From Terramyces sp. JEL0728 (Eukaryota; Chytridiomycota; Chytridiomycetes; Rhizophydiales; Terramycetaceae): a stretch of DNA of 22,135 bases. The notes beneath the pieces were generated by a model. That model was given only the letters and a program-made list of their open reading frames with translations, was not told where the DNA came from and made no database searches. A program made the translations under genes and the position numbers. This document shows, piece by piece, positions 879-21,952 of the stretch. Within the stretch, counting starts at the first letter, position 1. Each line of letters starts with the position of its first letter. The stretch spans positions 1-22,135 of the forward strand of contig JADIIU010000177.1 of the NCBI GenBank assembly GCA_027603945.1. The letters are read 5' to 3'.

Positions 879-2214
879 TTAGTGGTGATAGGACGATTTG
901 AAAGCCAAAGCCCTGTCGATCAGCGTCTTGCACTCGTCGTCGTGCTCCTTCTGTGTTTTTGATCTGTAGCCATGCTTCAAACCATGTTTCAAGTGTTGCA
1001 AAGTGCCATAGTGTTCTACAGACAGGGAATTCAAATGCTCAGTATAATCCTTGATTTCTTTTTCAAATGCGCGAATATTCCTGATATCATTTTCGCCGTA
1101 ATGCCAAATATGCAGGTAGTCGTCTGGGATTGGCTCGTGATAACGGATATGAGAGTGATCATCTCTGTCAAATGGATATACTAAAGTTTGGGAACTCGTG
1201 TATCCCCTTTTTCCCGGCGCAAATGAAACCTTGCTGGTTAAGGCGATCGAGTTGGAGTACTGAACACACTGCGTGCCACCAGCACCTACTATTACCAAAT
1301 ATTACCACCGCCAGCAACATTCAACACATCAGATACTTTATAGTCAACTTTTTCAAGGCCGCTGAACGATGGCATTACCATGCTTGGTTTATCGTTTGGA
1401 TCCGAGCTAAAGAATGTATTTGCTAATGCTGGATTCTGTTTCTGCCAGATCCACCACAATCTATCTACATTTCTGTGGTGCATATAAAAGACTAGATTAG
1501 TAGAACGTACTTGGATCGCCAGGTGAGGTGGTTGGATCGTACATGTCGCCGCCAATACCAGCGTGAACATTGTTGTGCAGAATGTTTTCAAGGTTTTGGC
1601 GGAACGAATCATAGTTTTTTGAAGCCAGGATGTAGGCGACTTGCGCTGGAGAATACATTGACCCTAGAATCGGAATTTTGTTTGAATCTTGACCTGCTGG
1701 AGACCAATTTCTTTGGACACAGTGAGTGCTGGGATAATTTGATACAATGTTTGCTAATTCTCCATTTGTTACACAGTGAGTTCTCTTGACACCATTTGAG
1801 CCAAACTTTGTCCAGATTGGCGATAGTTCAGGTGCTTGCGAGTCGTGAGCTTCGTCCCAGTAGGGGAACTTGCCCTTATATCCACACTTGTTGATCAAAT
1901 TCAAATCTAGAACTTGGAGAAAGTGTCTGTGCCATGGCAAAAAGACTGCAGTGTTGTGGATTTGATCTGCAACATTGGCATGCGCATAAGTCTGTTTAAA
2001 AATAAATTACCAAATCGTCCCATACGCTACCAGGCTTGACACCAAAGATAGATGGTTGCTTTCGAAGACACAGCACTGCTTTTAAGAAGGCGTCTTGTTC
2101 GGCAGAGGTCATTTCCCTCCATTCAACATTTTGACGCAGAGTGGTGCACGCAGACAACGCTAATTCAACAAATAAGAGTGAAATCAACATTAATAATCCA
2201 ATTTGTGTTGCCAT
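879..2214 (-). CDS. Secreted tyrosinase (type-3 dicopper oxidase)
   Basis: Exons 2214-2011, 1991-1511, 1491-1306 and 1285-879 give 425 aa. The three introns are 19, 19 and 20 nt. Tyrosinases use a coupled binuclear copper centre to hydroxylate monophenols and oxidise diphenols to quinones, the route to melanin. The CuA site is seen as H72, H80 and H89 in WDDL-TYAH...QIH...FLPWHRHF. The CuB site is seen as H207 and H211 in LHNNVHAGIGGDM, plus HH233-234 in DPIFYMHHRNVDRLWW. Intron 1 falls inside CuA and intron 2 inside CuB (DP|IFYMHH), so the motifs only become continuous after removing 19 nt each time. The start chosen is the second in-frame ATG, which opens directly on a hydrophobic signal peptide (MATQIGLLMLISLLFVELAL); another ATG lies 33 bases upstream. 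A minus-strand AATAAA lies just past the stop. Confidence 0.93.
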
Positions 2215-2320
2215 TAAATAATTTAATCTGTGGGCATGGATTTCCAAATATTTGCTTTACAGGGCAAAAATAACGCGTAAATATTTGGGTAATTACCAAA
2301 CAAATAAGTTTATTCTACAT

Positions 2321-3742
2321 TTAAAAGTTGATTATTTTACACTTATTTTTCCTCTTAAAAGCTTTGATTAGATTTCCTTCTTGATCGAGAACCTCATTCC
2401 CTTTGATGTCCAAATACTCTACATTAGATATCAGCAGAATATTCAGTAAACTAACCAGGCCGACTTTGTTGATTTTGTTGTCACGTAATTCCAGGTATTT
2501 TAATTTAGATCCGGGGACGCATAAAGCCAAATCAATTATACTGTTGCTCATATTGCAATTGTTGAGTTTTAAAACAGACAACACGGATTTGTTGATACTC
2601 GGAGATATCAACGGAATCAATGCTTCTACATTTAAACTTCCACTAAAGTCAAGGGTTGTAAGGCCATCTGCAAAGAATTTCGTTAATGCACGCGCGAGCT
2701 TACTACAAAGACGTTCATCATGATAATACAATTTCAGACTTTTCAATCTACAGCAATGTTTGAGAGCATGAACGTCTTCCTTGCCCAGTTTGTGTGTCAA
2801 CTGCAAAGCTTCCAAACTTGCTGGCGTATTCAAAAGTAATTGTTTGGTATTTCTAATCCTGACTTTTAATTGCTTCAATTTTGAAGATTTGAAACTCGCC
2901 AGTAAGCTGTCTTCGCACCTATTTGTTATATATGGGTCAAAATCAATTTTTTCCAACTTTGTACTTTCCAATAGGTCAAACAGAAGATAAAAATCGGTTT
3001 GGTGTATGCCTATTATACCCAGTTCCTTTAGATCTGATTGGGGCAATTGGCGGATGAATGATTTAAAAGCTGCATTGGAGATTGGATTCAGGGAAACATC
3101 AAGCTTGGTTAGATTTAACTGCAGCAATGATTGCAGCCCCATCCCTTCAATACAATTTCCACTGAGATCAATGTATTTGATGTTCTTTAGTCTTTGGGAT
3201 ATTTGAGCTACTGCGATATCATCCAGTTGACAATTTACCATTGACAAATGAGTGAGTGATTCTAACTGGTATGCAATATGCTGCCCTATCTTGAACCCTT
3301 TAATTCGCAATTCTTTTTCCTTTCTACCCGAAATTCTTTCCAATATCGTATCCTGGTGTATTCCATTGATAATCGCTCCTTCTTTTCGCTTGTCATGGCC
3401 AATATCTAAACAATCCGCAGATATAAAGTCCAATTCCAGAGAAAATACTGTCAGTTTCTGTCTGTGTGGCAAGTTGAGCACATCCACATAATTTGGGGAT
3501 AGTACGTAAATATTACGAAACTTCCATTTGTAAGGAACAATCAAGTGCATTTCATAGGTTACTGCGCATGTAATAATCAAGTCTGGCCACACATATTTGA
3601 GTTTCTTTATCAGCATTCGGATTGGAGTTAGTCGTTTTGAAAGACGTTTATTGGTAACCGCAAGTTGGTACAATGAGCTGGCGTCTAGGTAATGGATTAT
3701 TTTAGATTCCAGTAAATCAAAGGGGAGGTGTTCTATGTACAT
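2321..3742 (-). CDS. F-box / leucine-rich-repeat protein 1
   Basis: A single exon of 473 aa. Residues about 5-42 (LPFDLLESKIIHYLD followed by LYQLAVTNKRLSKRL) match the F-box pattern that binds Skp1 in SCF ubiquitin ligases. From about residue 160 to the end there are irregular leucine-rich repeats of the ribonuclease-inhibitor type (IKYIDLSGNCIEGMGL, LTKLDVSLNPISNAAF, LKYLELRDNKINKVGL), the usual substrate-recognition part. There is no signal peptide. It is paralogous to the genes at 13650 and 17616: all start with an LPxD(I/L)LE box, have almost the same length and lie on the same strand. A minus-strand AATAAA (TTTATT at 2309-2314) lies 7 bases past the stop. The SCF role is inferred from the domains; the target is unknown. 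Confidence 0.82.
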   Translation of the reverse strand: MYIEHLPFDLLESKIIHYLDASSLYQLAVTNKRLSKRLTPIRMLIKKLKYVWPDLIITCAVTYEMHLIVPYKWKFRNIYVLSPNYVDVLNLPHRQKLTVFSLELDFISADCLDIGHDKRKEGAIINGIHQDTILERISGRKEKELRIKGFKIGQHIAYQLESLTHLSMVNCQLDDIAVAQISQRLKNIKYIDLSGNCIEGMGLQSLLQLNLTKLDVSLNPISNAAFKSFIRQLPQSDLKELGIIGIHQTDFYLLFDLLESTKLEKIDFDPYITNRCEDSLLASFKSSKLKQLKVRIRNTKQLLLNTPASLEALQLTHKLGKEDVHALKHCCRLKSLKLYYHDERLCSKLARALTKFFADGLTTLDFSGSLNVEALIPLISPSINKSVLSVLKLNNCNMSNSIIDLALCVPGSKLKYLELRDNKINKVGLVSLLNILLISNVEYLDIKGNEVLDQEGNLIKAFKRKNKCKIINF

Positions 3743-3911
3743 TTTAAGTTAGTTTTTCGCGCAATCGATGACTGATAAACTACATTTCCAAGCGACTTTT
3801 CCAGTGGACTCGCTTCGAATCAAGCCAGAGTTGTGTCTGAAAGTGTGCAGTCATTTATGGAGCCTTTAAATATTTTAATGGCGAAGAAGCAATGGCTTTG
3901 ATTTTCCCCAA

Positions 3912-5021: not shown

Positions 5022-5773
5022 AAACACAAATTCGCCAGTCTCGGCATTGACGCTTACCTGCCTGTCTCTACAATTCTTGTTTACATAATACAATCCCAAA
5101 ACAAATCGTTTCGTAATTTCATCTTCTGACCTCAAGATTTTCATTTTCTGGTACAAATCTTGAATTGGATCTGGCTTGATTCGTTTGTAAGGAAACTTTG
5201 CGTCATCACCACTTTCAAATTCTGAACTTTGAATCGGGTCGCTATTTAATTCTCTTGCAGACTCACTATTTGATTCTTGTGTTTCTCTGGCTGTATCCGA
5301 CGTGTACTTTTTATCTGTATCCGACATTTTTTCGCCCAAGATTGCATATTCTGCAAATTTCGTAAGTGCACAGTTTGACTTGTCTTTTGTCACGCTGACT
5401 GCTGCTACTGCGTCTAGTAAAGGGTTGGCAATTGATTTCTTTTCGCCATCGTTTTTACGCTCCGTCTCGTATTCCTTGTGTCTCTTTGTGTGTGTACCTG
5501 TTGCGATACAATGCGCGCGGCTGGAACTGTGCGATTTTAAATCAGACAATTGGATGCCTTTATGATACCAAAATTACCTTTCTTGTTTGAACCAGTAAAC
5601 CCCGTATCGCTGTTGTTGAAGCTAGTTTTTGGCGCGCTCTTTTCAATACATATCTTGCAAAACACTGCGTCCTTTTCCTCATCATAAAGGAGCCAGTCCG
5701 ACAATCCCTCGGATTTGGGAAGATGGAGCCATTTCATCTTGAATCCTCTGGGGGATATTTTCTTTTCTTTCAT
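5010..5773 (-). CDS. TTF-type zinc-finger protein without a transposase domain
   Basis: Exons 5773-5578 and 5557-5010 (one 20-nt intron, GTAATTTTGGTATCATAAAG) give 247 aa. The N terminus resembles the TTF-type zinc finger found at the front of hAT transposases: WLLYDEEKDAVFCKICIE, then GFTGS and, across the intron, LSDLKSHSSSRAHCIA. This supplies Cys, Cys, His and His/Cys ligands. Removal of the intron is what joins the Cys pair to the LKSHSSSRAHC half. The rest is charged and low in complexity (ESNSESARELNSDP), with no hAT dimerisation or RNase H-like domain. The start is the first ATG of the frame; the frame is open further upstream without an ATG. It may be a domesticated DNA-binding protein; the function is unknown. 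Confidence 0.7.
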
Positions 5774-6073: not shown

Positions 6074-7217
6074 ATGTGGAAAATACTCTTGTTAATCCAG
6101 CAGATTATTGCATTTCAAGCAAGCGCCAGCTTTCCCGTTGTAGCAAGTTGGACTACTGATCCCAGCTCTGCCCCATACGTTTACTATGAACTCACCATTA
6201 CTGTTCCAGATCTTCCAGGAGCAGATTGGTATCCCATGGTCTTCATTGCTGGTATGCTTCCATTACCAAGTTCTCCTCACTTTTTACCACTCAATTATGG
6301 AATCCTTGATAGTGAACTCTCTCCAGGTGAATTATTTTTAATTCAGGCTCTACTCAATGGAATGCTGATCCAGCTTATAACAACGGTTATGTTAGCCCTA
6401 AAATTTACCAGAAAGGAGGTACAATTACTGTCGTTGCAGGTAACAGGTTGAAGGTTGTCATTGCCAAAAATGCTGGTTCCACAGTTTGGACTGCTACGAC
6501 TACCAATTTGGACAGTGGATCGTCATCAACGCAAACCTATGATCTGCAGGGTCAAGAACAAGCCAGTGCACAAATATACATAGAAACGATTAATGGCCAG
6601 CACACAAATCCGCCAAAGTTTTCCGTCTCCAATGTTTTATTAAAGTCTGCTGCTGGAACTAATGTCCAATGCTCTCCGGAATTGAGTGCATACCAAAGTT
6701 ATGCTGGAACTAGTGTGTCATGTAGCAATCCGGTTATCAGCGGGAATATTTGCTCCATTTCACAATGTCAATTTAACTTTCCTTCTCCAGCAACCACAAC
6801 TACAAAACCTGCCACCACTACTACAAACCCTGCCACTACCACTACAACCGCGCCAGTAACAACCACCACAAAGCCAGCTACCACTACTACTACCACTGCG
6901 GCAATTGCGACACCAACTTGTGCAAACCCAGTTGGAGCCTGGGGACAATGCGGTAATAACTAATCTTATGATAGGTGGTATCGGATATGCTGGCTCAACT
7001 TGTTGCCAAGCGGGATACAGCTGTGTCACATCCAGCGATTGGTGGTCTTCATGCCAAGTAAACGCTGCCACCGGTGGAACTGTTGCAGCTTGGGGTCAGT
7101 GTGGTAACTATTGATTAAAATATAGGTGGCCAAGGATACACTGGCAGTTCCACCTGCCAAACAGGTTACACCTGTGTCTACTCATCCCTTTGGTGGTCGT
7201 CTTGCCAGCCAATCTGA
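6074..7217 (+). CDS. Secreted protein A: beta-rich domain plus two CBM1 modules
   Basis: Exons 6074-6326, 6347-6952, 6975-7103 and 7126-7217 (introns 20, 22, 22 nt) give 359 aa. A signal peptide (MWKILLLIQQIIAFQASAS) is followed by about 215 aa homologous to the N-terminal domains of proteins B and C (SAPYVYYELTITVPDLPGADW, SSPHFLPLNYG, YDLQGQEQASAQIYIET). Next come a TTTTK/TTTTN linker and two CBM1 modules (VGAWGQCGGIGYAGSTCC...DWWSSC and VAAWGQCGGQGYTGSSTC...LWWSSC). Both 22-nt introns split the same codon of GQCG|G, both in phase 1, so exon 3 (129 nt) is a symmetric unit. Compared with B and C, the W-P-G-L-Q-P motif reads AGMLP, and the conserved Gln of GVLQ is Asp (GILDSEL, residue 79). 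A is therefore diverged and may have lost an activity. Confidence 0.85.
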
Positions 7218-7536: not shown

Positions 7537-7571
7537 AAATAATTCATCCGAGTCAAAATTTTATTGAAAAT

Positions 7572-8582
7572 CTAATACAATGGTCTAATCTTAAAGTTCT
7601 TCTTGGTCTTTGCTTGAACCATTGGCTTGGCGTTTTGAACCTTTGAGCTTGCCTGGATTGCTGGAGTGTCAGATTCATTCAGGAGACATCCTTGTTTATC
7701 AGCGGACCACATTGATTGGATCAAGAATTTGCCGTTTGTGCCGAAATCAACGTTGTAAGCCCCATTGTATGGAGAAGTGCTTCCAATGCCTTGTACATTG
7801 ATAAAGTATGAAGCACACTTGTCGCCGTTTTCATAGCCGGTATCATCTCTCCACGCATTGTCATAATCTGAGGCAGTTTCTGCAATTTCATGGGCAAGGA
7901 CATCAATCATTGAATCGGCGTGTTGATCCTTGTTGATTGAGAAAGTAGAGTCAGTCTGGTTTCTATAGTATCTCTGCATACATCCAGCAGTACCAGTTGA
8001 GCCTCCTGGAGGTGGTAAAGTGCCTGGACATCTGGTAGCATCACCAATCATGTTGGACTTCAATCCAGAGCTGGTAACTCCATGATATCCACAGTAGTCA
8101 GTGCAGAATCCTCCGTTGGATGATTTTTCGGCTACATCGTTGTATACGAATACAGGGTAGATGCCGTTGGCGTCTTTTGGCCACTTGTTTACCTTGACGG
8201 CATTGTCAATGATCTTGTCAAGGTCGCCGCTCTTCAAGTTCTTGCCAAGGGAGTAGTTGTCTTGATAGGACCCCTTCCATGTAACTTGCCCATTGATTTG
8301 GCCATTATCGCCAGAGTAAGATTCAACTACGGTCCACCAGTTAGAAGAACCCAATCCGTTGATAAAGTTTTTGACCAAGGCTTGAGTACCAGATGAGTGG
8401 GAACCATAAAAGATTGCGTAGATATTGACACCGCTTGCCATTACATTTCCACCGTTGTTGTTGATTTGGCCTTGTGCAGTTTGGGCAGGCTCTTTGACGG
8501 TATATGTGCCAGAAGCGCTGTCTTCAACGGTTGGTGTAGCTTGAACACAAGCGAATGCAAGGAGAGCAGTCAAGAATTTCAT
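7572..8582 (-). CDS. EXORDIUM / PHI-1-like secreted protein
   Basis: A single exon of 336 aa. The ATG at 8582 begins a clear signal peptide (MKFLTALLAFACVQA); the frame is open upstream, but a TATA-like box just 23 bases before this ATG favours the short form. The body matches the phosphate-induced protein 1 (Phi-1, EXORDIUM) family: NIYAIFYGSHSSGTQ, NWWTVVESYSG, YPVFVYNDV, GFCTDYCGYHG, and the C-terminal DVLAHEIAETASDYDNAW...GYENGDKC (HE at 231-232). That last segment resembles a zinc-protease HE motif, but catalysis is unproven in the family. In plants these are apoplastic proteins linked to brassinosteroid- and phosphate-regulated growth; a fungal role is unknown. AATAAA on the minus strand lies about 7 bases past the stop. 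Confidence 0.85.
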   Translation of the reverse strand: MKFLTALLAFACVQATPTVEDSASGTYTVKEPAQTAQGQINNNGGNVMASGVNIYAIFYGSHSSGTQALVKNFINGLGSSNWWTVVESYSGDNGQINGQVTWKGSYQDNYSLGKNLKSGDLDKIIDNAVKVNKWPKDANGIYPVFVYNDVAEKSSNGGFCTDYCGYHGVTSSGLKSNMIGDATRCPGTLPPPGGSTGTAGCMQRYYRNQTDSTFSINKDQHADSMIDVLAHEIAETASDYDNAWRDDTGYENGDKCASYFINVQGIGSTSPYNGAYNVDFGTNGKFLIQSMWSADKQGCLLNESDTPAIQASSKVQNAKPMVQAKTKKNFKIRPLY

Positions 8583-8990
8583 TATTTCATACTCAATGGT
8601 GTCTCTTTTTATACCAGTTGCCGGCAAAATGTGCGTGTCGAACCGCATGGTGTCATAGAGTCCACACAGATGACAACTGTGCATTTTGCAACTATTTTCA
8701 GTCCAATTTGAAAAATATCCGTCTATTTCCAGAGATTGGTATTGGACCAGCCTGCCTGATAGTCGCTTTGCTTTCCAGCCAAAACCGACAGCAAAGAATG
8801 ACGAATAGCAGCAAATTCCACATTTTCATTTAAAAGTGAATCTTGCGGCAAACCATATGGAGAGTCACAATGGAGAGTAATCGCATCTACCAATCAGTCA
8901 AGAAAATGGACTAATCCCACGTTATTTTAATGAATTCTGCTCTTTCCCAAAAATTTTATCGAAATGTTTCACTTCCAACGCAAGAGGGAA
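8583..8990. other. Divergent promoter region, EXORDIUM-like / ERCC8
   Basis: The gap between two divergent genes holds the TATA-like box of the minus-strand gene. The short frames crossing it on the plus strand show no motif. An ATG at 8931 (+) opens a 37-codon frame that stops at 9044, overlapping the ERCC8 start in another frame; it could be an upstream ORF. Confidence 0.5.
8605..8613 (-). promoter_or_regulatory. TATA-like box of the EXORDIUM-like gene
   Basis: TATAAAAAG on the minus strand, 23 bases upstream of the chosen ATG at 8582. The spacing implies a very short 5' leader. Inferred from the motif only. Confidence 0.45.
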
Positions 8991-9972
8991 ATGGAATCAG
9001 TACTATTCCCTATAGAATCACTTTTTATACCTTTCAACTTTAGCCATAATCTCACTTTCTCATCAACCAGGTGTCTCTCAACTTTAGATCAGCAGTAAGA
9101 TGTTTTGATTCTAGTGTCCTGTGTGCGGGAGAAACAATACAGTTATACTATATGGCAAAGGAATTGATTGAAATCAAAGAGACCGGACATAAAGCAGAAA
9201 TCACTGGTTGCGAATTCTATACCGATTCGGGAGTGTTTTCCACCTGCTCGATGGACAAGACAATTCAAGTATGGGATACAAACGAATTGGCTCCGGTATT
9301 TAAATTCAATATGCGAGATCCGGTCTATAGGATAGCCAGTCAAGATGGACTGATTGCTGCTGGATTGAAATCGAAAATGATGCACCTGTGCGACTTGAAC
9401 TCTGGATCTATGACACATTCCTTGAAGCATTCTAGTAGCACGACGAGTCTCTGCTGGTATCCAGAAAACAAGCATTATATTGTATCTGGAGGATTGGAAG
9501 GAGAAATAAAAATGTGGGATGTTCGCAAGACAAACGAGTCGATATGGACGCAGCAGTGCTCTGGCACAGTTAAAGATGTGAAATTCTTGAATAATCAGAT
9601 TGTAGTTTCTGTGGATAATGAGCTGAATATCCTCGATCTTGATGGAGAAAATCAGCATGTAGTTCATTATTGACCTAGATTGTATTTAACAACAAACATT
9701 CAAACAAAGCAGATACCATTCAAAGCGCAGTTTACTCTACGGATAACGCAAGACGCGCAGTGATATTCATGCCGTCTGATAACGGCAGGATCTATATCTA
9801 CAATAGCAGAGGACAATTAGTTAGGGTGTTGCAATCCCATTTGGGTGGAATTTCTAGCTTGTGTTTCTGCCCAGAGTTGGTTGTCCTGTATTCGGCGTGC
9901 TATTTGGATGGTGTGTACTGCTGGAAGCAAGTGGATAAAGTGCCATTTATTGGAGATACCTGGGATAGCTAG
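8991..9972 (+). CDS. ERCC8: ERCC8/CSA-type WD40 DNA-repair protein
   Basis: Exons 8991-9094, 9115-9658 and 9679-9972 (introns 20 and 20 nt) give 313 aa. CSA (Rad28 in yeast) is the WD40 substrate receptor of a CUL4-DDB1 ubiquitin ligase in transcription-coupled nucleotide excision repair. The match runs the length of the protein: STCSMDKTIQVWDT; MMHLCDLNSGSMTHSL; YIVSGGLEGEIKMWDVRKT; LNILDLDGENQHIVFNN; RIYIYNSRGQLVRVLQSH; and the terminal GDTWDS (EDAWSS in human CSA). The first exon (MESVLFPIESLF...CLSTLDQH) is confirmed because removing GTAAGATGTTTTGATTCTAG joins TLDQH to VLCAGETIQLY, the first WD repeat. The frame is accidentally open through that intron, which hides the true start. The N terminus is shorter than in human CSA (396 aa). 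Confidence 0.85.
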
Positions 9973-10181: not shown

Positions 10182-11335
10182 ATGTTTCAAACACTGCTCT
10201 TTGCTTCTAGTGCTCTTGCTGCCGATACAAACTTTGCAGTCAACGCTTACTGGTTCACTGATCCGGTCAATGCCCCGTTCGTCTATTTTGAAAGTACACT
10301 CACCGTTCCACTACTTTTGACTCCTGCCTGGGATACAACTTTCATCTGGCCCGGATTACAGCCATTGGGTAACTCTCCGCACTTTCTGCCAATAAACAAT
10401 GGTGTGCTCCAACCGGTATTGACTTATGGTATAAGCTGTGCTCCAAATCCGTCAAATACTCCGCTATCTTTAAACAGTTGGTGGATATCGGCTCAGTATG
10501 TAAATACATATGCTTCACCAATCATATGCACAGGAGGAAATGTTATGAACGTTAATGTTGGTGACTCGTTGAAAATGGTGATGCAGTTGAGAACTGGTAC
10601 AACAACCTGGGATCAAACTGTTACCAATTTGAATAGCGGAACCTCTGTTTCATTTTCTTACGATTTGCAAGGGCAAGAGCAAGGATGGGCTGAATATGTA
10701 ATGGAAACTCCAGCAGGTTGGCACGACAGTCCTCCTCAATTTATCGTTTCGAATTTGGTAATGAGATCAGCACCAGGGACTACAGTTGGATGCGATTATC
10801 AATCTTCTGCCTATTCTGGATATCCTGGTGCTGCAGTTACTTGCGACTCCCCAGTTGTGAGTGGTAATACGTGCACTGTAAGCAAATGCTTGTATAACGG
10901 TGCTTCATCATCTACTACCACCACTGCACCAAAGACTTCCACATCTTCCGCTATTTCAACCCCATCTTCCGCTTGTACTGCTCCAGTGCCAGAGTGGGGA
11001 CAGTGTTCTGGTGTTGGTTATGCTGGATCTACTTGCTGTGCAGCAGGGCTAACTTGTAATGAATTATTTAACTGTAGGTGTTGCAACAAGCCAATGGTGG
11101 GGTTCGTGCCAAAGAACTGTGTCTGCTCAGACAACTTCAGCCGCGGTCGCTTCAACTACTACTTCTGCCTCTGCTACTTCATCTTCTGCTTGTACTGCTC
11201 CAGTACCAGAGTGGGGACAGTGTTCTGGTACTGGCTATACTGGTTCTACTTGTTGCGCAGCTGGCTTGACCTGTAACCTTTCCACTAACAATAGGCAAAG
11301 CAACAAGTCAATGGTGGGGGTCTTGTCAACATTAA
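10182..11335 (+). CDS. Secreted protein B: beta-rich domain plus two CBM1 modules
   Basis: Exons 10182-11055, 11078-11272 and 11295-11335 (introns 22 and 22 nt) give 369 aa. A signal peptide (MFQTLLFASSALA) is followed by an unrecognised domain of about 225 aa with FIWPGLQPL, GVLQPVLTYG (Gln77), SWWISAQYVNTY, YDLQGQEQGWAEYVME (Glu175) and paired cysteines. Then come a Ser/Thr linker and two nearly identical CBM1 modules (CTAPVPEWGQCSG, GYxGSTCCAAGLTC, ATSQWWGSCQ). Both introns interrupt the same Cys codon (GLT-C) in phase 1, so the middle exon (195 nt) is a symmetric duplicated unit. Without splicing, the frame loses the WWGSC of the module. The motif set recalls secreted fungal proteins of lectin or G1-peptidase-like beta-sandwich fold; that link is inference. 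The protein should bind cellulose. Confidence 0.85.
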
Positions 11336-12944: not shown

Positions 12945-13602
12945 ATGGAAAACAATTTGGAAGCTAAAGATTTAGAGAAAATCCATGTCCACCAAGTATA
13001 CGAGGAAATTGCCGAGCATTTCAGTTCAACCAGATACAAGCCATGGCCAGTCGTCGAAGAATTTCTATTATCACAGCCTTTAGGAGCAATCGGAGCAGAC
13101 GTTGGATGTGGAAACGGCAAATACATTCATGTAAATCCAAATGTTTTCATTTCCGGATCAGACAGGTTGCTATTACTAACCCAGGAGCTCAAACTTGATC
13201 AAAATCGTAAGTGAAAAAGGTTTCGAAGGACTGGTGTGCGACGGATTATCACTAAGTTACAGATCAAACGCATTCGATTTTGCTATTTCTATTGCTGTAA
13301 TTCATCACTTCTCAACCGCAGAGAGAAGGCTGGAAGCAATCAGGGAAATATTAAGGATCTTGAAATCAGGCGGAAGTTGTTTGATTTTTGTTTGGGCATT
13401 GGAGCAGGAAAAGAATTCAAAGAGGAAATTTGAGACTCAGGATGAAATGGTTAGTTGGACAAAGAAGGATGTTGTGTATCATAGGTATTATCACTTGTTT
13501 AAAGCCGGGGAGCTGGATGAACTTGTCAAGGATTTGCCCTGCGAAATACTGAATTCTGGATATGACAGGGATAATCATTATGTTATCTTGAAAAAGAAAT
13601 AA
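12945..13602 (+). CDS. TRM9: TRM9/ALKBH8-type tRNA wobble-uridine methyltransferase
   Basis: Exons 12945-13165 and 13185-13602 (one 19-nt intron, GTTGCTATTACTAACCCAG) give 212 aa. Trm9, with Trm112, uses S-adenosylmethionine to make mcm5U at U34 of certain tRNAs. Seen: VYEEIAEHFSSTRYKPWPVVEEFL at the N terminus, the SAM-binding motif GADVGCGNGKY (residues 50-60), SGSDRSSNLIKI created by splicing, DGLSLSYRSNAFDFAISIAVIHHFST (93-118) and IFVWALEQE (141-149), all Trm9 hallmarks. The length is that of the stand-alone fungal enzyme rather than the fused animal ALKBH8. It starts only 88 bases after protein C. AATAAA (13598-13603) overlaps the stop. Confidence 0.95.
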
Positions 13603-13654
13603 ATTAAATTCACGGGCATCTCGGTTAGAATCTCTTTCATGGATACAATTTATT
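13598..13654. terminator. Convergent poly(A) signals overlapping both stop codons
   Basis: On the plus strand AATAAA at 13598-13603 contains the TRM9 stop (13600-13602). On the minus strand AATAAA (TTTATT at 13649-13654) contains the stop of the F-box/LRR 2 gene (13652-13650). Only 47 bases separate the two coding ends. The poly(A) role is inferred from the hexamer. Confidence 0.5.
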
Positions 13655-15053
13655 CAGTTTCATTTACCTCCAACATCAACTTTGGATATTTACAAGCGAG
13701 CAATCTGGCAAATTTAGCATTGAATCCTTTCCAGCATTGAATTTTTAAATGCCTAATTTGATTGCCCAATGCAAAGATAAATTGCGATATTCTGGATAGA
13801 GAGTTGCCATTCCAATAGATTTCCAATGTTTGGATAGGAATGTCCCTTACCATGGGAATCAAATATTGGAAACCGCCTTCCCCAAATGATTTCAATTTCA
13901 AGGACACCTTTCTTATTTTAGTCTTTTTCAAATGTGATTCAATGATTTCTAGTGCTTCTTTTGGAATCCATCCGTCGATTTCTAATTCTTGTACATTCAG
14001 ATGAGAAAACAACAAATCCAAACTGTCCTCGGAGAACTTTCCTGCAAGTTTTAGTGATTCAAGTTTGACTGAAAAGACTTTCTTTGCAGATTGGATATAT
14101 TCAGGTTCAAGTCGACTCAGCGAGAGATTTTGAACTCTGGATTTGCTGATTGATTTCATCATGGTGGGTAAATTGTCGTCTGCAACTAGGGAGAGCGTTG
14201 ATAGGTGCGATTTCGAAAGGGTTTGGCAGAGCAATTCTAAAGAATCGTGTTGCAATTGAAAGTCCAAATTCAAAGTCTGCAGGTTCAGCTCGGGTAATAC
14301 CTCCAGCATTCTATTCAGCAATTCCTTTGGTATTTCTCCGCTGAGCTCTGTCAATTTTTTGAATGCAAATGGGTTGTAAGCGATGCCCGATATTATGTCA
14401 TGACTTGGACTTGAATTTTCACATTTGTGGAGACAACCATTGGTTGCAATTCCAAGTTTAGCTATCGTGGTTGACGGACATATTAGTTTTAGAGTACTGC
14501 GGTCTAATTTGTTGAGAAACAGGTTCTGGATTTTGGAATTTGATAGCTTAACAAAGAAAGATTCTGGACATTGATATCGATGGCAACCAAAATATATACT
14601 CTTTAGGGCTGGCATTTTATCGATATTGTTGAGTATGAGGTTCATTTCATGTTGTGTGATTCTAGTCCTGCAGCTAATCTTGATGCTAGTGACATGGACG
14701 GCATTGAGAGCACTGATGAGTAGGTTGACGTCCGATATTGTAAGATTCAAAATCAGTTCATGTGCCAGAGGAAGGTACTGGTAAACCTGAACAAACAGTA
14801 AAGAATCAATTTCAATCCTTTTGAATTTCAGCGAAATACTTGACAGTTTTTTGAGTGGCAAGTGATCCAACGATTCAATATGAGAAAGGTCAAGAAAGGG
14901 CCAAACTGATTGGCTTTGTAATACAGATAGAATTTGGATTTGGTCCAATCTTTTGTGAAATCCTTTGTTTAATAGAGACAAATGGATAATGTCCTGGCTG
15001 TCCAAGTAGTCGAATATATTGTATTCAAGTATATCAACTGGCAGGTGGTTCAT
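13650..15053 (-). CDS. F-box / leucine-rich-repeat protein 2
   Basis: A single exon of 467 aa. The N-terminal F-box pattern reads LPVDILEYNIFDYLDSQDII followed by HLSLLNKGFHKRL. The rest is a series of diverged leucine-rich segments (LNLQTLNLDFQLQHDSLELL, HLSTLSLVADDNLPTM, VQNLSLSRLEPEYI, LESLKLAGKFSEDSLDLLF), more degenerate than in proteins 1 and 3. The C terminus is basic and hydrophobic (KYPKLMLEVNETE). It is a likely SCF substrate adaptor by domain content, with unknown target. It is convergent with TRM9 and divergent from the ERD2 locus. Confidence 0.78.
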   Translation of the reverse strand: MNHLPVDILEYNIFDYLDSQDIIHLSLLNKGFHKRLDQIQILSVLQSQSVWPFLDLSHIESLDHLPLKKLSSISLKFKRIEIDSLLFVQVYQYLPLAHELILNLTISDVNLLISALNAVHVTSIKISCRTRITQHEMNLILNNIDKMPALKSIYFGCHRYQCPESFFVKLSNSKIQNLFLNKLDRSTLKLICPSTTIAKLGIATNGCLHKCENSSPSHDIISGIAYNPFAFKKLTELSGEIPKELLNRMLEVLPELNLQTLNLDFQLQHDSLELLCQTLSKSHLSTLSLVADDNLPTMMKSISKSRVQNLSLSRLEPEYIQSAKKVFSVKLESLKLAGKFSEDSLDLLFSHLNVQELEIDGWIPKEALEIIESHLKKTKIRKVSLKLKSFGEGGFQYLIPMVRDIPIQTLEIYWNGNSLSRISQFIFALGNQIRHLKIQCWKGFNAKFARLLACKYPKLMLEVNETE

Positions 15054-15192
15054 TAGTTTGAAGGAGAAAGTCGCCAGCTGGTTAGGCTTTGATGACGGAA
15101 TCGATTCCGATTTGAAGAGTACCTTGAGTCTAGTAAATTAGTGCCCAGCCGATAATGCAAAAAATCATAATGGAAAGTATTGGATATCTTTA

Positions 15193-15375: not shown

Positions 15376-15377
15376 AA

Positions 15378-16099
15378 ATGAATATCTTTCAATTGATTGC
15401 AGATTTAACACACGTAGCATCAATATGTCTCCTCCTACTCAAAATGATTACCACGAGGTCTGCATCAGGTACAACTCACTAATACAGGTACCAATTACTA
15501 ACAAGGCATCTCATTCAAATCGCAACTGTTGTTCTGTCTTGTTTTCATTTTCAGATACATTGACTTGTTTACTCACTTTGTATCCTTTTACAACACAGTA
15601 ATGAAGGTTATTTATATCTCTACTTCAGTTTATACATTATTCTTGATGAAAACCAGCTTGAAGGCAACCTGGGACCCTAAATTGGATACCGTCAGACTGG
15701 AACTATTGGTGATTCCAAGTGCACTCTTTGCTTGCTTTGTCCATTATAACGGTGACTCAATTATAGAAGTACGAGGAGTTAATGTAGATTACATGGGCAT
15801 TTTCAATTTACTTGGAAGCTGTTGCTATTTTGCCGCAATTGTTTCAGTTATCTAGGACTGGAGAGGCAGAGACTATTACTGCGCATTATCTGTTTGCTTT
15901 AGGTGCTTACAGAGCGTGTTATATATTGAACTGGATCTATAAATATTTTACAAAGCCGCATTTTCATGATTGGATTGCAGTAGTGGCAGGAATTATTCAA
16001 ACTGGATTGTATGTCGATTTCTTTTACGTATATTTCACCAGGTTTTTTCACTTTAATTTTAGAGTTGTCAAGGGAAAACGATTCAGACTACCAGCATAA
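15378..16099 (+). CDS. ERD2: ER lumen protein-retaining receptor (K/HDEL receptor)
   Basis: Exons 15378-15468, 15506-15768, 15788-16041 and 16063-16099 give 214 aa, the family length. Erd2 cycles between Golgi and ER and returns HDEL/KDEL-bearing luminal proteins. It is a seven-helix membrane protein. Seen: [37 protein letters not shown] across intron 1; [53 protein letters not shown]; the hallmark [28 protein letters not shown]; and the C-terminal [15 protein letters not shown]. The first intervening stretch is 37 nt and reads as two abutting introns (19 + 18 nt); the others are 19 and 21 nt. AATAAA at 16098-16103 overlaps the stop. Confidence 0.96.
15469..15505 (+). other. Head-to-tail intron doublet in ERD2 (19 + 18 nt)
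   Basis: Between the codon-split bases G and GC of ERD2 Gly31 lie GTACAACTCACTAATACAG (15469-15487) and GTACCAATTACTAACAAG (15488-15505). Each has its own GTAC start, ACTAAY branch-like motif and AG end, and they align closely. Removing only one leaves an in-frame stop within a few codons (TAC TAA or CAC TAA). Removing both restores SASGISFKSQ. It could equally be excised as one 37-nt intron. Confidence 0.8.
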
Positions 16100-16140
16100 T
16101 AAACGGATTTAATGAATTATTTTATTAGTATATTTCAATA

Positions 16141-17416
16141 TCATTTGAACAGCTGTGTAATATCGTCGGCTACTTTAGATTCGTCTTGCGGATCGTAGTT
16201 GATGTTCAGAATGTCTTGCGACAACTCTGATGGATTGTATTGATAATCTGAAGGCGTTACAAAATTGACCAGAGGCGAAGTAGGATACCTTGGCGGTTGA
16301 ATATAATTCTGTAGCGGAGGAGATTTGAAACTAGCACCTCTATATGCCATTGGATAGGCAGGCTGCGCTGGTGACGGAAACGGTTGGGAAACCGGATACT
16401 GTGGAGGCGGATACTGAGCAGCTGGTTGAGGTTGAGTGTAAGGTTGGGGGAAAGGTTGCATCAAATCAAACGGTGCCTTGTCTGTGGAAGATGGGAAAGG
16501 GTTCACATCTTGGAACCCCTTCAGCAAATCATCGAACGGCTGTGCTAACGCTTCGTTGCTGGAATGTAAAGAGTCTGCTTGGTACAATGGCTGGGAATCT
16601 ACTTGGTTTGATCCCTCGATGAATGGCGTGTAAGGCGAATCAAAAGGAGAATCAAACGGCGAGTCGAACGGAGAATCAAAAGGAGACTCGAACGGTGATT
16701 TATGTGCAGACAATCCTCTTTCTTCACCGTCTTGGATCTCTGCTGGTTCTCCATTTGGCCCAGAATAGTGTCTTGGAGACCTGCCTCTAACTACAATTGG
16801 AGCGGACTCTAATGTGCATATCTTTACATTTTGTCCTGATTGAGTTGCTCCGTACAAAATCAAAATTACTGAAAAATGCTGTTTTCCCCTACTTCTCCTG
16901 GCGGTACTCGAGGGTGAGTTTTTAAACTGAATTCTTGGAAATGTAACGACAGAGAGGGATGTCCCATCAAAGGGGTTTCCTCCCGCCATACACACTGTTG
17001 GTTGAGGTATCAACTGCGGCCCTTTATCTCTTTTCGTTGTTTGCTGAATCAATTCTATTTTAGATCCTTCTATATGATTGCCAGACTCTACTCCTATCAA
17101 AAACGAGGTGACTTTTTCATAGTTCCCATTATTATTTACTGAAAAGTGTAGTTTTGGATGGTCATGCACTGTCCCCAGCGTAAATGAGCCAGATATTTGA
17201 AAGTAATTGCGGCGGTAACAAGTCCATTCATTGTCTACAAGGAAGAATCCCTTGTCAATCTTTCCAATCAACTTTGCTTCGACACTTTGTTAGAAGGATT
17301 TACTCTGTCTGGGTATCTTCTGCTCTGAGAGCTGCAAGCTGCTCTGCCCTTGTAAAGAACGGAATTTCCTGTTGCTGTTGTATTAATGGATCTTCTTCCT
17401 TTGGAGATTTCGACAT
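16141..17416 (-). CDS. NDT80/PhoG-domain transcription factor
   Basis: Exons 17416-17304 and 17284-16141 (one 19-nt intron, GTAAATCCTTCTAACAAAG) give 418 aa. The Ndt80 DNA-binding domain starts near residue 43: GKIDKGFFLVDNEWTCYRRNYFQISGSFTL (the invariant WTCYRRNYF at 58-66), then SGNHIEGSKIELIQQTTKRDKGPQ, VTFPRIQFKNSP and FSVILILYG. Family members control meiosis, nutrient responses and secreted enzymes in fungi. Residues 234-255 are a tandem SPFE/SPFD repeat, and the C-terminal third is rich in Pro, Gln and Tyr, like an activation domain. The ATG at 17416 starts MSKSPKEEDP. Another ATG at 17480 opens a different frame that overlaps this start (a possible uORF), or could join at GAAGAAGAT by a 52-nt intron, which would be atypical here. 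Confidence 0.85.
16633..16698 (-). repeat. 12-nt coding repeat, SPFD x5
   Basis: Five units of 12 nt encode SPFE, SPFD, SPFD, SPFD, SPFD followed by SPY in the NDT80-like factor. Synonymous differences between units (TCT/TCG, CCG/CCT) show the array is not brand-new. Ser-Pro pairs are potential proline-directed kinase sites. Confidence 0.85.
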
Positions 17417-17615
17417 ACAAGTTTGAAAAAGAATAATCGATTTCTCTTACAGGTGGCGCATTGGTGATTCCATTCTGCATTGTTTAAGCAAGGAAAGAAT
17501 AGAAAGCAGTTTTTATTCTCAATATCGGTATACAGCCAATACAATATATAATGGGAACGCAACTAGCACCAGACATTGTGTTGCAATCACCGCTTTTCTG
17601 GGTGAACACAAAGGA

Positions 17616-19073
17616 TCAATAATCAAACACGATTTCTTTCGAGCACAGCCTTGCCATTCTCCTAACTCTATTATCACACTCGCTAGTTATTATTAGTCTA
17701 GCCAACTTTGAATTCTGGTATGTTTGAAACATAGAAGCATACTCTTTACTTCCAAGGGGTCCTTTGAATACTACTGTTCTGATACGCGATTGTTCAAACA
17801 CCTCGCACATTTCCTCTGTCAGGGCATCCCATATCTCGATATATTCCAAATTGGTATGCGGAATGAGATCTTTTACAGACGCAAAATCCACGCAAAATCC
17901 ATATATCTGCGTGATTCTGGAGTTTGCCAGACTTTGAAATAACGGGTGCTGATCTTCAATCTCTGAGCGTTCTATTGTGATTGATTTAAAAGGCAAATTG
18001 TAAAGGTGTTGAGATAGTATAAATGCGTCTTCATTACTGAACACAAATCCGAGTGATACAGTTTCTATCGTACTGTTGACACACTGCTGCAGGAATTCGT
18101 TAAATAATCGTGTTCGAATCCACAGTTTTAGATCTTTAATTTTCGTTTTTGAAATGACCCTATTGATCGACTGCTGACTTTCGATCGACAGTTCATTTTC
18201 AAAATGAAAAACTTGCAATTGCGATTTAGCTAAATATTCCAGAGAAAGTGAGACGTCGTCCAGCAAATGCTCGCCCAGGTATAATTCTGTGAGTTTGGAT
18301 TGTGGTAAAGATGCCAACACCGTTTGAATTCCCGGTTTGGATATTGGATTAAATGACAAATCCAACGCTGTAACTTGCGACTTGATAATTATTTCAGCGA
18401 TATCTCTTGCTCCACTGTCCTGAATAAAGTTTCCCGAAAGGTTTAAATATTGAATTCTCGAGTTTATAATTGCAGATTTCATTTCGGCAACAAAATCATC
18501 CATCAGATCGTTGTGCATTATCGAAAGTTTTGTAATTGACGATACAGTAACAAAATTTTTGTATAAGGTGAGATTCCGCTCATATAGCTGCATATTGGTT
18601 TTCATTCCTACACACAGATCAATGATGTTAGGCTGATTGAATAGCTCCAGATACTCCATGTTGTGAAATAGCCCATTAAGTTGAATTTTCTGGGCTCGTA
18701 TATTCATGAGTGCGCTCGATAACTCTATATATTCACTGGGCTGTCCATGCGATATTTTAATTCGAAGCAAGTCTGTCCTTGGTAAATATTGCTGAATAAG
18801 CAATAATGTGGTAATTGAAATATCAATTTGTGTAAATCTCCACTTGTAATTCGATAATTGTTCTATTTGAGGATCGTATTGGAATGATTTCAGCGAATCG
18901 GGCTGTAATATTGGCCAAATACATTCTGGTTTCACTCGGCACTTTGAAAATATTTGGATTGGATATAGCCTCCGGTAATTCGCTTTACTGGTTAGTGATA
19001 AGTTGAATATATCCAGTCCTTGCAGGTAGTAAATAATTTTGCACTCCAGGATATCAAAAGGCAATTCCTCCAT
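17616..19073 (-). CDS. F-box / leucine-rich-repeat protein 3
   Basis: A single exon of 485 aa. The F-box pattern LPFDILECKIIYYLQGLDIF, then NLSLTSKANYRRL, occupies residues 4-37. The ribonuclease-inhibitor-like repeats include ITKLSIMHNDLMDDFVAEM, IQYLNLSGNFIQDSGARDI, VTALDLSFNPISKPGI and LTELYLGEHLLDDVSL. These are closely parallel to protein 1 (IKYIDLSGNCIEGMGL, LTKLDVSLNPIS), so proteins 1 and 3 are the nearest pair of the three. It is a probable SCF ubiquitin-ligase adaptor with unknown substrate. It is single-exon like its paralogues, while most neighbouring housekeeping genes are spliced. Confidence 0.8.
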   Translation of the reverse strand: MEELPFDILECKIIYYLQGLDIFNLSLTSKANYRRLYPIQIFSKCRVKPECIWPILQPDSLKSFQYDPQIEQLSNYKWRFTQIDISITTLLLIQQYLPRTDLLRIKISHGQPSEYIELSSALMNIRAQKIQLNGLFHNMEYLELFNQPNIIDLCVGMKTNMQLYERNLTLYKNFVTVSSITKLSIMHNDLMDDFVAEMKSAIINSRIQYLNLSGNFIQDSGARDIAEIIIKSQVTALDLSFNPISKPGIQTVLASLPQSKLTELYLGEHLLDDVSLSLEYLAKSQLQVFHFENELSIESQQSINRVISKTKIKDLKLWIRTRLFNEFLQQCVNSTIETVSLGFVFSNEDAFILSQHLYNLPFKSITIERSEIEDQHPLFQSLANSRITQIYGFCVDFASVKDLIPHTNLEYIEIWDALTEEMCEVFEQSRIRTVVFKGPLGSKEYASMFQTYQNSKLARLIITSECDNRVRRMARLCSKEIVFDY

Positions 19074-19180
19074 TTTCTAAAAAAAATGATGTGACAGCCA
19101 AATTTGTAATCCTGGTGCCTTTCTCATCATTAGTTGGGTTAGATTTAGAATTGGCGGAGCCATGGAAGATGCGAAAGTAG

Positions 19181-19423: not shown

Positions 19424-19445
19424 CCACAAACTTTTGCTGAATTTA

Positions 19446-20848
19446 ATGGATCATCTTGACCCCGAACAGCAAGAGTCTGTTCAACAATTTCAGGTACATT
19501 TTTCTAATAGTAGAATATATCCGGAATAAATCAAGTCAGTCTTGCAATAGAAATCCTTGAAAACCATGATTGGGATTTGCCTCAAGCAGTTGAAAGTTTC
19601 CTGACCGAACAAACAATCCCTTCAAAGGTACAATCAGAACCATCATCATCCAGAACACCTACAAGAACGCCTGCAAGAGCACCAGCTCAAGTACGAACTG
19701 CAGGAGCCGTTTCTCGACCAAAACCTTCAATTTTTTCCCTTTTAACAACTCCTTTTATCTGGGGATATAAATTATTGTGGAATATCTTGACCGTTACACT
19801 TTCATTTTTCCCATTTTGGAAGAATAGAAGAATTAGAGCCAGTACCGATCCAACAGATTGTGCAATCAAGTTTAGGAAAGAGTTTATCAAGAACTATGGA
19901 GAAAAAGGACCGCAATTCTTTGAAGGATCTTACTCGAACGCTTTAGATGCTGCAAAAAGAGAGTTGAGATATATGCTGGCGGTACTTAATTCCGAAGAAC
20001 ATGACGATAATGACCTCTTTTGCCGGTAATCTTAATTGACCGCAGAGATACTTTGACCTCGGATTTATTCTCTAGCTTTATTAGAGACAAGGATGTATTG
20101 GTTTGGGGAGGCAGTGTGCTTGAAAGCGAACCGTTCAAAGGTATCTGCGGACTAACAAAGTTGCGGAGTTGCTGGGGGCAACCAAATACCCTTTCATGGC
20201 TCTTATTGCTCTGCATGATTCTCGAATGAAAGTTGTTCACAGGTTTGAAGGAATCACTGAGCCGGAAGCATTCATTAGTATCACTTCCAATTTTATGAAT
20301 CAATTGGATCAGTTTTACAACCAGGCTAGGGCAGAAAAAAGGGAACGCGAACTTGCCAGATCGATCAGGGAACAACAGGATATGGCCTATCAGCAATCCC
20401 TGAAAGCCGACAGGGAGAAAGCGGAAAAGCTGAAACGCGAGCAGGAAGCTGCAGCTCAACTTGAAAGGGCAGCCAAACTCCAGGAAATTGAAATCGAATT
20501 AAAAAGACAGCAAAAAAGAGAATACAAGTTACAGCTAGCACAAAACCTTCCAAGTGAACCTGAACAAAAGGATAATGTCGCCAATTTATCGATTAGACTG
20601 CCAAATGGAACTCGATTGACCCGCAGATTTGATGCAGAGACAAAAATCAAAGTAATCTTGATATAACTTAGAATTTACATGATTTCATCGAAAGTAACGA
20701 TTTGGAGCCAATTGACCTCTTATCTGAATTTGTTATTGTAAATACTTACCCAAGAAAAGAGTACACCGACCTGAACCTTACATTTAAAGACGCAGGGTTA
20801 TATCCTAGTGCCGCTGTCATTGTTGAAGAGGTTTTCGAAGATGAATAG
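19446..20848 (+). CDS. FAF2: FAF2/UBXD8-type UBA-UAS-UBX protein (Ubx2-like)
   Basis: Exons 19446-19493, 19514-20025, 20046-20140, 20161-20651 and 20672-20848 (four 20-nt introns) give 440 aa; human FAF2 has 445. This ER and lipid-droplet protein recruits Cdc48/p97 through its UBX domain for ER-associated degradation. Seen in order: a UBA-type segment (LAIEILENHDWDLPQAVESFL, about 25-45); a membrane hairpin (FSLLTTPFIWGYKLLWNILT, then FFPFW); a UAS thioredoxin-like domain (FEGSYSNALDAAKREL, LVWGGSVLESEPFK, YPFMALIALHDSRMKVV); a long charged coiled coil (QQDMAYQQSLKADREKAEKL); and a UBX domain (IRLPNGTRLTRRFD, DFIESNDLEPIDLL, LTFKDAGLYPSAAVIVEE). The p97-contact FPR loop of UBX reads YPR here. 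All splice junctions restore family sequence. Confidence 0.94.
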
Positions 20849-20889
20849 TAAAGCCAAGACGATTAATGTCAACTAAATATATATTATAA

Positions 20890-21952
20890 TTACCATGGGT
20901 TTTCGTAGGATCTGTGCAACATATCAGCAACTGGTGCAATACTGACTTCTTCCATGCGAACAGTAATATCTTCTGTGATACGATTTCTAGGTGGTTTTTC
21001 TGGAATTCCAGAATCTTCCTGCTCAGCCCAATTGGTACTTGAGTAGCCACGAGTATTCAATTGCTCTGCAGGTGGTGAGATGTCCTTAGCTTCGCTCCAA
21101 TTGCTACTTGGAAAATTTAATTGCTCTGCAGCAGGTGAAATGTCAGATCCAGGATAATGCTGAGAAATATTTGAAGAATCTATAATTTCTGGCTGAAAGT
21201 ATGAGTGGTTAGATTCAATAAGCTCTAAATCTGGTAGCCTCATCAGAGCATGTTGGAAATCACTGTAGATTTGGTTGGTCATACTTCGCCCTGATGTAAA
21301 CTATAGAGTACCTTTGAATGCAGGTAAATCCTCACCGGGCTTTACTTCAAATTGAGGAATTTGAGCTGCAAGATGATTTCCATAGATGCCAACTTGTTTT
21401 GCCTGCATCAATCAAAACAAACCTTTAGTGCGAATTTCAAAATCCCATTGAATTGGGCAGAGAGTCCTTCTTGCAACAATAATCTCTTCTTGGATTCATA
21501 AACTGCAACTTCTTCCCTTTCTTGTTTTTCCAAGAAATCTCTATCAGCAACCAACACTTCATACGGCTTCCCAGCTTTAATAGCTCGCTGGCACTTTTCT
21601 GCTGCTGCTTTCAATTTTTGTCTAGTAGCTGAAATTTCATCATACAATGTTCTAATATCCTTTAATTTTTCCCTGAAAGCAGTTTGAGAGTCAGTGTATT
21701 CGTTCAGAATAAAAGTGAATTCATTCATCATTGAGGTGTATCCTTTTGTAATTTCCTTTAAATCTTCATGCTCTCCATCTCCCCATATTTGAATGTATCG
21801 GGAAGCTGGGTTACTGTTTGGTTACCTGATGTAGTGCTTCTGGTGACACTATTCATGCCGGCAATGCAATCCTTTTCTTCGGAAATGCAGTTGGATAAGT
21901 GCGGATCATTTGCCTTGAGGTTTATTATCGATCGTTTTATACCTCCAAACAT
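20890..21952 (-). CDS. Eisosome Pil1/Lsp1-like BAR-domain protein
   Basis: Exons 21952-21826, 21805-21423, 21402-21312 and 21290-20890 (introns 20, 20, 21 nt) give 333 aa, close to yeast Pil1 (339). Pil1-type BAR proteins assemble into plasma-membrane furrows (eisosomes). After splicing the sequence reads SASRYIQIWGDGEHEDLKEI, recalling the A-x-QLSIWG...DVSDI segment of Pil1. It continues as a long helical region (FREKLKDIRTLYDEISATRQKL, KPYEVLVADRDFLEKQEREE, LLLQEGLSAQFNGILKFALK) and then AKQVGIYGNHLAAQIPQFEV, equivalent to the A-x-YG segment. The acidic tail carries a 20-residue duplication. Pil1 identity is moderate: another BAR family is possible. It converges on FAF2 with a 41-base gap. 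Confidence 0.68.
21019..21145 (-). repeat. About 60-nt coding duplication in the Pil1-like tail
   Basis: Two copies encode DISPAAEQLNFPSSNWSEA and DISPPAEQLN...YSSTNWAEQ. At DNA level AATTGCTCTGCAG recurs at 60-base spacing on the plus strand (21059 and 21119). The second protein copy carries a few extra residues. Confidence 0.75.

Follow-up and report, generated by a model that had tools for sequence, protein, structure and literature searches.

The introns of the chytrid Terramyces sp. JEL0728 are, with a probability of about 96%, genuine U2-type (major-class) spliceosomal introns, nearly all of which measure only 17–23 nucleotides (nt) and mostly 20 nt. The window under study is the 22,135-nt stretch of contig JADIIU010000177.1, one contig of a 15.0-Mb, 231-contig assembly. 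In ten genes of the window, 22 introns were rebuilt, with lengths of 18 nt (1), 19 nt (6), 20 nt (10), 21 nt (1), and 22 nt (4), and all of them begin with GT and end with AG. A preliminary description of the window had counted 24 introns of 18–22 nt in ten genes; their size and GT...AG ends are confirmed, but only 22 could be rebuilt, and the description gave no list. The limits that it gave, 1286 and 21825, coincide with the outer ends of the first and last rebuilt introns, and the two introns that it quoted were located as GTACGTTCTACTAATCTAG at 1492–1510 (minus strand) in a tyrosinase gene and GTATCTGCGGACTAACAAAG at 20141–20160 (plus strand) in FAF2. Its proposal of a fungus with uniformly ~20-nt introns also stands: the organism belongs to the Fungi (Chytridiomycota, Rhizophydiales, Terramycetaceae), short introns occur across 20 other contigs, homologues fit at the junctions, and deposited gene models agree where compared. 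The range of 18–22 nt holds in the window but is slightly too narrow for the genome as a whole (17–23 nt).

Intron lengths across the genome

A narrow length class emerges from two gene finders that operate without any length prior. The first, a Viterbi gene finder that relies only on coding statistics and GT...AG ends and gives equal weight to all lengths between 10 and 150 nt, was run on 222 kb, consisting of the window and 200 kb from 20 other contigs. Without any motif to guide it, it returned 59 introns, 22 of them 19–22 nt long, whereas searches with the wrong dinucleotides placed 0 of 60 (TG...GA), 1 of 56 (CA...TC), and 1 of 53 (GA...GT) calls in the same range. The second gene finder also uses scores for donor, branch, and acceptor that were trained on the matches of the first; it was applied to 249.5 kb from 29 loci, a small part of which had been picked by gene (loci L001, L023, and L027 were excluded as short, near-copy, and overlapping, respectively). 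It identified 155 introns, of which 121 are 17–23 nt long (17 nt, 2; 18 nt, 1; 19 nt, 29; 20 nt, 62; 21 nt, 15; 22 nt, 11; 23 nt, 1), one measures 11 nt, and 33 fall between 24 and 150 nt. A control with reversed motifs produced 91 introns, with 7 at 17–23 nt, 2 below this range, and 82 at 24–150 nt. The calls outside the ultrashort range are therefore no more numerous than in the control, and since those of 24–150 nt do not exceed this background, no longer class of introns stands out.

The same picture is obtained for the four genes that homologues cover wholly or for the most part (FAF2, ERD2, a phosphorylase-kinase subunit, and RIO2), where 16 of 16 introns are 18–23 nt long, counting an abutting pair in ERD2 as two. 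Among the longer calls that were inspected by eye, one of 144 nt in locus L012 seems to fuse two genes, presumably STT3 and a lumazine-synthase-like gene, and another of 26 nt in locus L009 seems to cut what we take to be a kinase motif.

Scaling the 121 short introns in 249.5 kb to the 15.0-Mb assembly gives a rough estimate of about 7,300 introns. This figure is probably low, because the gene finder misses introns (one of them in RIO2) and because a strict intron pattern has 488 matches in the sample versus 229 in shuffled sequence (overlapping matches counted). Introns whose length is a multiple of three contain an in-frame stop codon in 16 of 16 cases, compared with 70 of 105 for the other lengths. 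A rule that such introns always hold a stop was nevertheless set aside, because the gene finder reads through a stopless intron of this kind and cannot see it, which may also lower the counts at 18 and 21 nt.

Anatomy of the short introns

Although the GT...AG ends were required by the search, none of the three wrong-dinucleotide searches shows a peak at 20 nt. Among the 121 short introns, the donor carries A at position 3 in 110, A at position 4 in 74, T at position 5 in 77 (G in 16), and T at position 6 in 72, and the acceptor is preceded by T at position −3 in 88. The AU content is 71.5%. A branch motif of the form T[AG]A[CT] is present in 112 introns, and its predicted branch A lies at position 14 (54 introns) or 15 (39 introns) in 93 of them, followed by 5 (44) or 6 (45) nt in 89; the letters of the branch site were counted over the 99 of the 112 introns with this A at positions 13–16. 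Spacing is thus near-fixed both from donor to branch and from branch to acceptor. The same holds at each length: the predicted branch A is at position 14 in 23 of 26 introns of 19 nt, at 14 or 15 in 49 of 59 introns of 20 nt, at 15 in 11 of 13 introns of 21 nt, and at 15 or 16 in 9 of 10 introns of 22 nt, which suggests that the intron is close to one rigid unit. As read from its sequence, this compact unit is composed of a GTAATT-like donor, a predicted branch A at position 14–15 within [CT]T[AG]A[CT], and an AG that ends 5–6 nt further on.

Junctions in homologues and deposited gene models

Splicing of FAF2 over its four 20-nt introns yields a protein identical at 440 of 440 residues to the FAF2 sequence deposited for Terramyces sp. 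JEL0728 (P0241). The FAF2 model of Boothiomyces JEL0866 aligns at all four junctions and that of Boothiomyces JEL0838, which begins past the first junction, at three. The phosphorylase-kinase alpha/beta gene (locus L017) has seven introns in its rebuilt model, with lengths of 20, 20, 20, 22, 22, 22, and 23 nt. Among its 120 listed homologues, leaving out rows without letters at the respective junction, the alignment is gapless over six residues on either side in 120/120, 118/120, 118/118, 107/119, 112/116, 110/111, and 115/115 cases. The deposited JEL0728 protein has identical residues at all seven junctions, and six of them fall within the alignment to a solved structure (8jfk_M). Likewise, the alignment of Rpb1 with the solved structure 3h0g_A is gapless across the position of its 20-nt intron. 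The deposited JEL0728 models of FAF2, RIO2, and the kinase subunit agree with the short introns wherever they were compared; by implying such introns, these proteins place the relevant data already in the public domain.

Further support comes from two near-identical copies of a gene, presumably VMP1-like (named by eye), which are located on different contigs (L022 and L023, around positions 1510–1530). One copy is interrupted by the intron GTAAATGTTTGCTAACGATAG (21 nt), the other by GTAAATGTTGCTAACGATAG (20 nt), and both encode the same residues on either side of the intron in the stretch compared, indicating that a one-base change in length is tolerated within the segment.

Abutting introns in ERD2

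At the first junction of ERD2, reading frame and structure alignment require the removal of 37 nt (15469–15505). These 37 nt consist of two complete units of 19 and 18 nt, each with a predicted branch A at position 14. In a strict scan of the 249.5-kb sample, abutting units were encountered in two places, namely in ERD2 and as a candidate in L017, compared with none in five Markov-shuffled sets. Judging by the sequence, the stretch may represent two introns that are removed stepwise (recursive splicing) or a single intron of 37 nt; both readings are possible.

Splicing machinery

The genome retains recognizable components of a U2-type spliceosome. The small nuclear RNAs (snRNAs) U2 (140.2 bits, with the branch-pairing GUAGUA intact) and U5 (85.9 bits) score above the cut-offs of their families. 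All three spliceosome proteins that were searched for found a match: Prp8 above the cut-off with its PROCN domain (774.1 bits), SF1 likewise above the cut-off in two pieces (66.2 and 42.9 bits), and U2AF65, at a score below its cut-off, with a U2AF65-like gene that reaches 251.7 bits across the unspliced DNA and 299.6 bits in a spliced part lacking the N-terminus. Of the factors that the preliminary description had singled out for inspection, U2, SF1, and a U2AF65-like gene are thus accounted for, whereas U6 went undetected in a search that does not demonstrate its absence. A gene resembling Prp40 was noted by eye in locus L003.

Weighing of the alternatives

Several observations weigh against genuine, nearly uniform U2-type introns. 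U6, which is normally among the most conserved RNAs, was detected neither by its covariance model nor by BLAST of the Rfam consensus, two core patterns (one mismatch allowed), or a gap-tolerant pattern, and also U1 and U4 were undetected in the 231-contig assembly; scores cover only some of the candidates and there was no positive-control genome with a known U6, so that silence in these searches does not equal absence. The silence of U6, U1, and U4 would follow from any of three causes: diverged sequences, genes split by introns, or incomplete assembly. Weak Rfam matches to U6 at C199 and C111 (27.4 and 26.9 bits; cut-off 44) were not accepted, because they lie inside a coding gene (VMP1 by eye) and over its intron, and the single match to the 5′ U6-core pattern, at C65, reads by eye as coding sequence. 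The scores of the U2AF65-like gene fall just under the curated cut-off of 310.3 bits. The T[AG]AY motif is missing from nine of the 121 short introns, and the alignment of ERD2 to 6y7v_A contains a one-residue gap five residues upstream of the second junction. The gene finder also errs: in RIO2 it overlooked the second intron (22 nt), and in ERD2 it placed a false one of 79 nt, which is gone in a better model. Finally, the deposited gene models are themselves predictions.

It is scarcely credible that the short segments are patches over sequencing errors, assembly errors, or decayed genes. A gene finder can indeed mask frameshifts with false GT...AG introns, and the raw excess of motifs in the window is small, but errors or decay would hardly explain why the 20-nt peak is missing from the wrong-dinucleotide and reversed-motif controls, why the branch position is near-fixed and conserved residues stay in register at the junctions, and why the deposited proteins that were compared arrive at identical 20-nt solutions. 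That the segments are bypassed during translation or eliminated from the DNA instead of being spliced would be in line with their shortness and uniformity, yet it is an extremely remote prospect given that the peak appears only with GT...AG ends (GTA in 110 of 121), that the near-fixed motif could pair with U2, and that U2 and U5 snRNA, Prp8, SF1, and a U2AF65-like gene are retained.

An ordinary mixture of lengths, in which short introns are over-represented because long ones are missed, is also very improbable. The gene finder was limited to 150 nt; however, the range of 50–120 nt, a common one for fungal introns, was open to it and shows no excess over the control, and the genes with homologue cover contain exclusively short introns. 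A further proposal would extend the U2-type reading rather than replace it, namely that the spliceosome has been remodeled, with U6 (perhaps also U1 and U4) diverged or split by tiny introns, and is locked to a donor–branch span of 14–15 nt. The failure of every U6 search and the preference for T over G at donor position 5 speak in its favor. By contrast, U2 and U5 exceed the cut-offs of their families, the missing genes may simply be absent from the assembly, and candidate scoring was partial and lacked a positive control, which makes this extension unlikely. Even more doubtful is its strongest form, in which such a spliceosome could no longer use ordinary fungal introns and would remove longer stretches, as in ERD2, stepwise as abutting units.

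A probable mechanism

From sequence data we infer that the segments are removed from RNA, which branch point is used, what part the individual factors play, and how deletions have led toward a floor. The simplest and likely account is the standard course of splicing at the lower size limit of the spliceosome, as in Stentor, mikrocytids, and nucleomorphs: U1 and then U6 would engage the donor, SF1 and then U2 the branch site, and Prp8 and U5 would act in the core. With a donor hexamer at positions 1–6 and a branch site at about positions 10–15, only a few unpaired bases would remain between the stretches held by U6 and U2. The 3–4 nt between branch A and AG would not accommodate a polypyrimidine tract; for want of such room, the 3′ AG is probably the first AG past the branch. 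If U2AF65 touches the intron at all, it would have to do so on the branch site itself or on sequence preceding it, probably the T-rich part. Intron length would then be set by the minimum span of the spliceosome, with deletions piling up until this floor is reached. A deletion bias against a functional minimum has been proposed as a route to such a floor in the part of PMC10245619 considered here, and the narrow length peak of Terramyces is compatible with this idea.

Ultrashort introns in other lineages

Microsporidia, which are sister to or within the fungi, have introns down to roughly 23 nt; passages of PMC3629993 state no length. They share with Terramyces the presence of very short introns on the fungal branch. 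Microsporidian introns, however, are few and relatively short (PMC10245619) and occur in reduced intracellular parasites, whereas the set in Terramyces is large and uniform. Introns have been surveyed in 644 fungal genomes (PMC8476143, in part), that is, in the same kingdom as Terramyces, whose intron lengths have their mode at 20 nt.

The comparison with chlorarachniophyte nucleomorphs (18–21 nt) and Stentor (15–16 nt) drawn in the preliminary description is borne out by the pertinent sections of PMC10245619 and PMC9505925, and the mikrocytids (16–17 nt) should be added. The heterotrich ciliate Stentor coeruleus has introns of 15–16 nt that, like those of Terramyces, are uniform, ultrashort, and AU-rich (75.6% vs 71.5%), with GU-AG ends, a near-fixed branch A, and a tail of 5 nt (mostly 5–6 nt in Terramyces). 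Their branch A, by contrast, is at position 10 of 15 and lacks a strong consensus, whereas that of Terramyces is at position 14–15 in a clear motif, and all five snRNAs have been found in Stentor, whereas U1, U4, and U6 went undetected in Terramyces (PMC9505925, sections as above). A reduced spliceosome, as in the mikrocytids, is not a feature of Stentor. The mikrocytid Mikrocytos mackini resembles Terramyces in that its introns have a conserved motif and keep to a narrow range of lengths (16–17 nt) close to the lower extreme. It differs in that it lives as an intracellular parasite, its spliceosome is very reduced, and its introns number 224 (PMC10245619, sections as above), compared with thousands, by extrapolation, in Terramyces, where each of the three spliceosome proteins looked for has a match. 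The introns of chlorarachniophyte nucleomorphs (18–21 bp, as cited in the same sections of PMC10245619) cover nearly the same range, but a nucleomorph is the relic nucleus of an endosymbiont, whereas the introns of Terramyces belong to a fungus's main genome.

Searches of the open-licence papers in PubMed Central brought up no mention of ~20-nt introns for Terramyces or other chytrids. Apart from the few short introns of microsporidia, Terramyces is the first fungal lineage with uniformly ultrashort introns that these searches brought to light. At about 20 nt, its introns rank near the smallest recorded for any organism. The other cases found described come from ciliates, intracellular parasites, and nucleomorphs, to which a chytrid with some 7,000 or more (a rough extrapolation) adds a fungal case. 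Terramyces is presumably free-living, and we assume that the JEL strains are kept in a culture collection. Its position beside the well-studied spliceosomes of other fungi (Schizosaccharomyces pombe, yeast) renders the size floor of introns and its cause directly testable.

There are also consequences for annotation, since the intron-length floors of annotation software could damage genes throughout the family of Terramyces and may have hit the catalytic loop in the RIO2 model of Boothiomyces macroporosus. This deposited model (P0003) lacks 11 residues (GDFNEFNLLIK) exactly after the position of the Terramyces intron. The gap may reflect a tiny intron that was annotated about 33 nt too long; this is a guess from sequence, and the fact that the stretch extended by 33 nt does not end in AG in the Terramyces DNA counts against it.

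Introns and genes of the window

Raw motif counts by length show only a weak excess in the window (at 20 nt, 16 observed vs 9.8 expected); they were dropped as a deciding test, and the claim of short introns consequently rests on reading frames and homology, the latter backing most of the 22 introns. For eight of the ten genes (all except the zinc-finger-like and the WD40 gene), the spliced protein was rescanned against Pfam and compared with the unspliced pieces. Spliced CBM1 gene A contains two CBM_1 stretches (72.2 bits), whereas the unspliced piece at 6331–6963 contains none. Four of the CBM1 introns interrupt cellulose-binding motifs, which are complete after removal. A Pil1 match is absent from the unspliced pieces of the Pil1-like gene and reaches 49.5 bits once they are spliced. 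The score of the NDT80-like protein does not increase (110.2 vs 109.8 bits after splicing), because the intron lies outside the domain. The introns of the zinc-finger-like gene and the WD40 gene are supported by reading frames. The label ERCC8-like for the latter is taken over from the preliminary description and is presumptive.

Table 1. Introns rebuilt in the window (contig JADIIU010000177.1) and the evidence for each.
Intron	Position	Strand	Length (nt)	Evidence and remarks
Tyrosinase, intron 3	1286..1305	−	20	Gene finder, frame join; downstream of Pfam domain
Tyrosinase, intron 2	1492..1510	−	19	Near end of tyrosinase domain; Pfam 88.5 + 28.4 bits, 135.1 bits when spliced
Tyrosinase, intron 1	1992..2010	−	19	Gene finder and rebuilt model
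Zinc-finger-like gene, intron	5558..5577	−	20	Frame join
CBM1 gene A, intron 1	6327..6346	+	20	Gene finder and rebuilt model
CBM1 gene A, intron 2	6953..6974	+	22	Within WGQCGG motif
CBM1 gene A, intron 3	7104..7125	+	22	Equivalent place in next CBM1 repeat; Pfam match of spliced protein
WD40 gene (ERCC8-like), intron	9659..9678	+	20	Frame join; WD40 matches in first piece
CBM1 gene B, intron 1	11056..11077	+	22	CBM_1 from 31.8 to 58 bits on splicing
CBM1 gene B, intron 2	11273..11294	+	22	Rebuilt model, Pfam match of spliced protein
TRM9-like methyltransferase, intron	13166..13184	+	19	Methyltransf_11 from 40.7 to 53.8 bits on splicing
ERD2, intron 1a	15469..15487	+	19	Adjoins 1b with zero-length exon; gapless to PDB 6y7v_A
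ERD2, intron 1b	15488..15505	+	18	Possibly one 37-nt intron with 1a; gapless to 6y7v_A
ERD2, intron 2	15769..15787	+	19	ER_lumen_recept from 93.5 + 85.8 to 192.1 bits on splicing
NDT80-like gene, intron	17285..17303	−	19	Called by motif-free gene finder
FAF2, intron 1	19494..19513	+	20	Spliced protein equals deposited P0241
FAF2, intron 2	20026..20045	+	20	Equals deposited protein; 15/15 homologue rows gapless
FAF2, intron 3	20141..20160	+	20	Equals deposited protein; 15/15 homologue rows gapless
FAF2, intron 4	20652..20671	+	20	Equals deposited protein; UBX from 28 to 64.6 bits on splicing
Pil1-like gene, intron 3	21291..21311	−	21	Lacks T[AG]AY branch motif; Pfam stretch ends near junction
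Pil1-like gene, intron 2	21403..21422	−	20	Rebuilt model, Pfam match of spliced protein
Pil1-like gene, intron 1	21806..21825	−	20	Rebuilt model, Pfam match of spliced protein

Other genes

The window also harbors three intronless open reading frames of 475–495 amino acids (2321–3748, 13650–15137, and 17616–19076, minus strand), whose F-box-like starts are alike by eye; leucine-rich repeats were found in the first of them (2321–3748) only. The three look like a local family expansion. The product of a gene at 7572–8648 (minus strand) carries a Phi_1 (phosphate-induced protein 1) domain (88.4 bits), which defines a family known mainly from plants. Elsewhere in the sample, genes that by eye resemble those of the flagellar dynein regulatory complex are present in L003 (5828–6928) and L020 (2045–3911), as expected for a zoosporic fungus.

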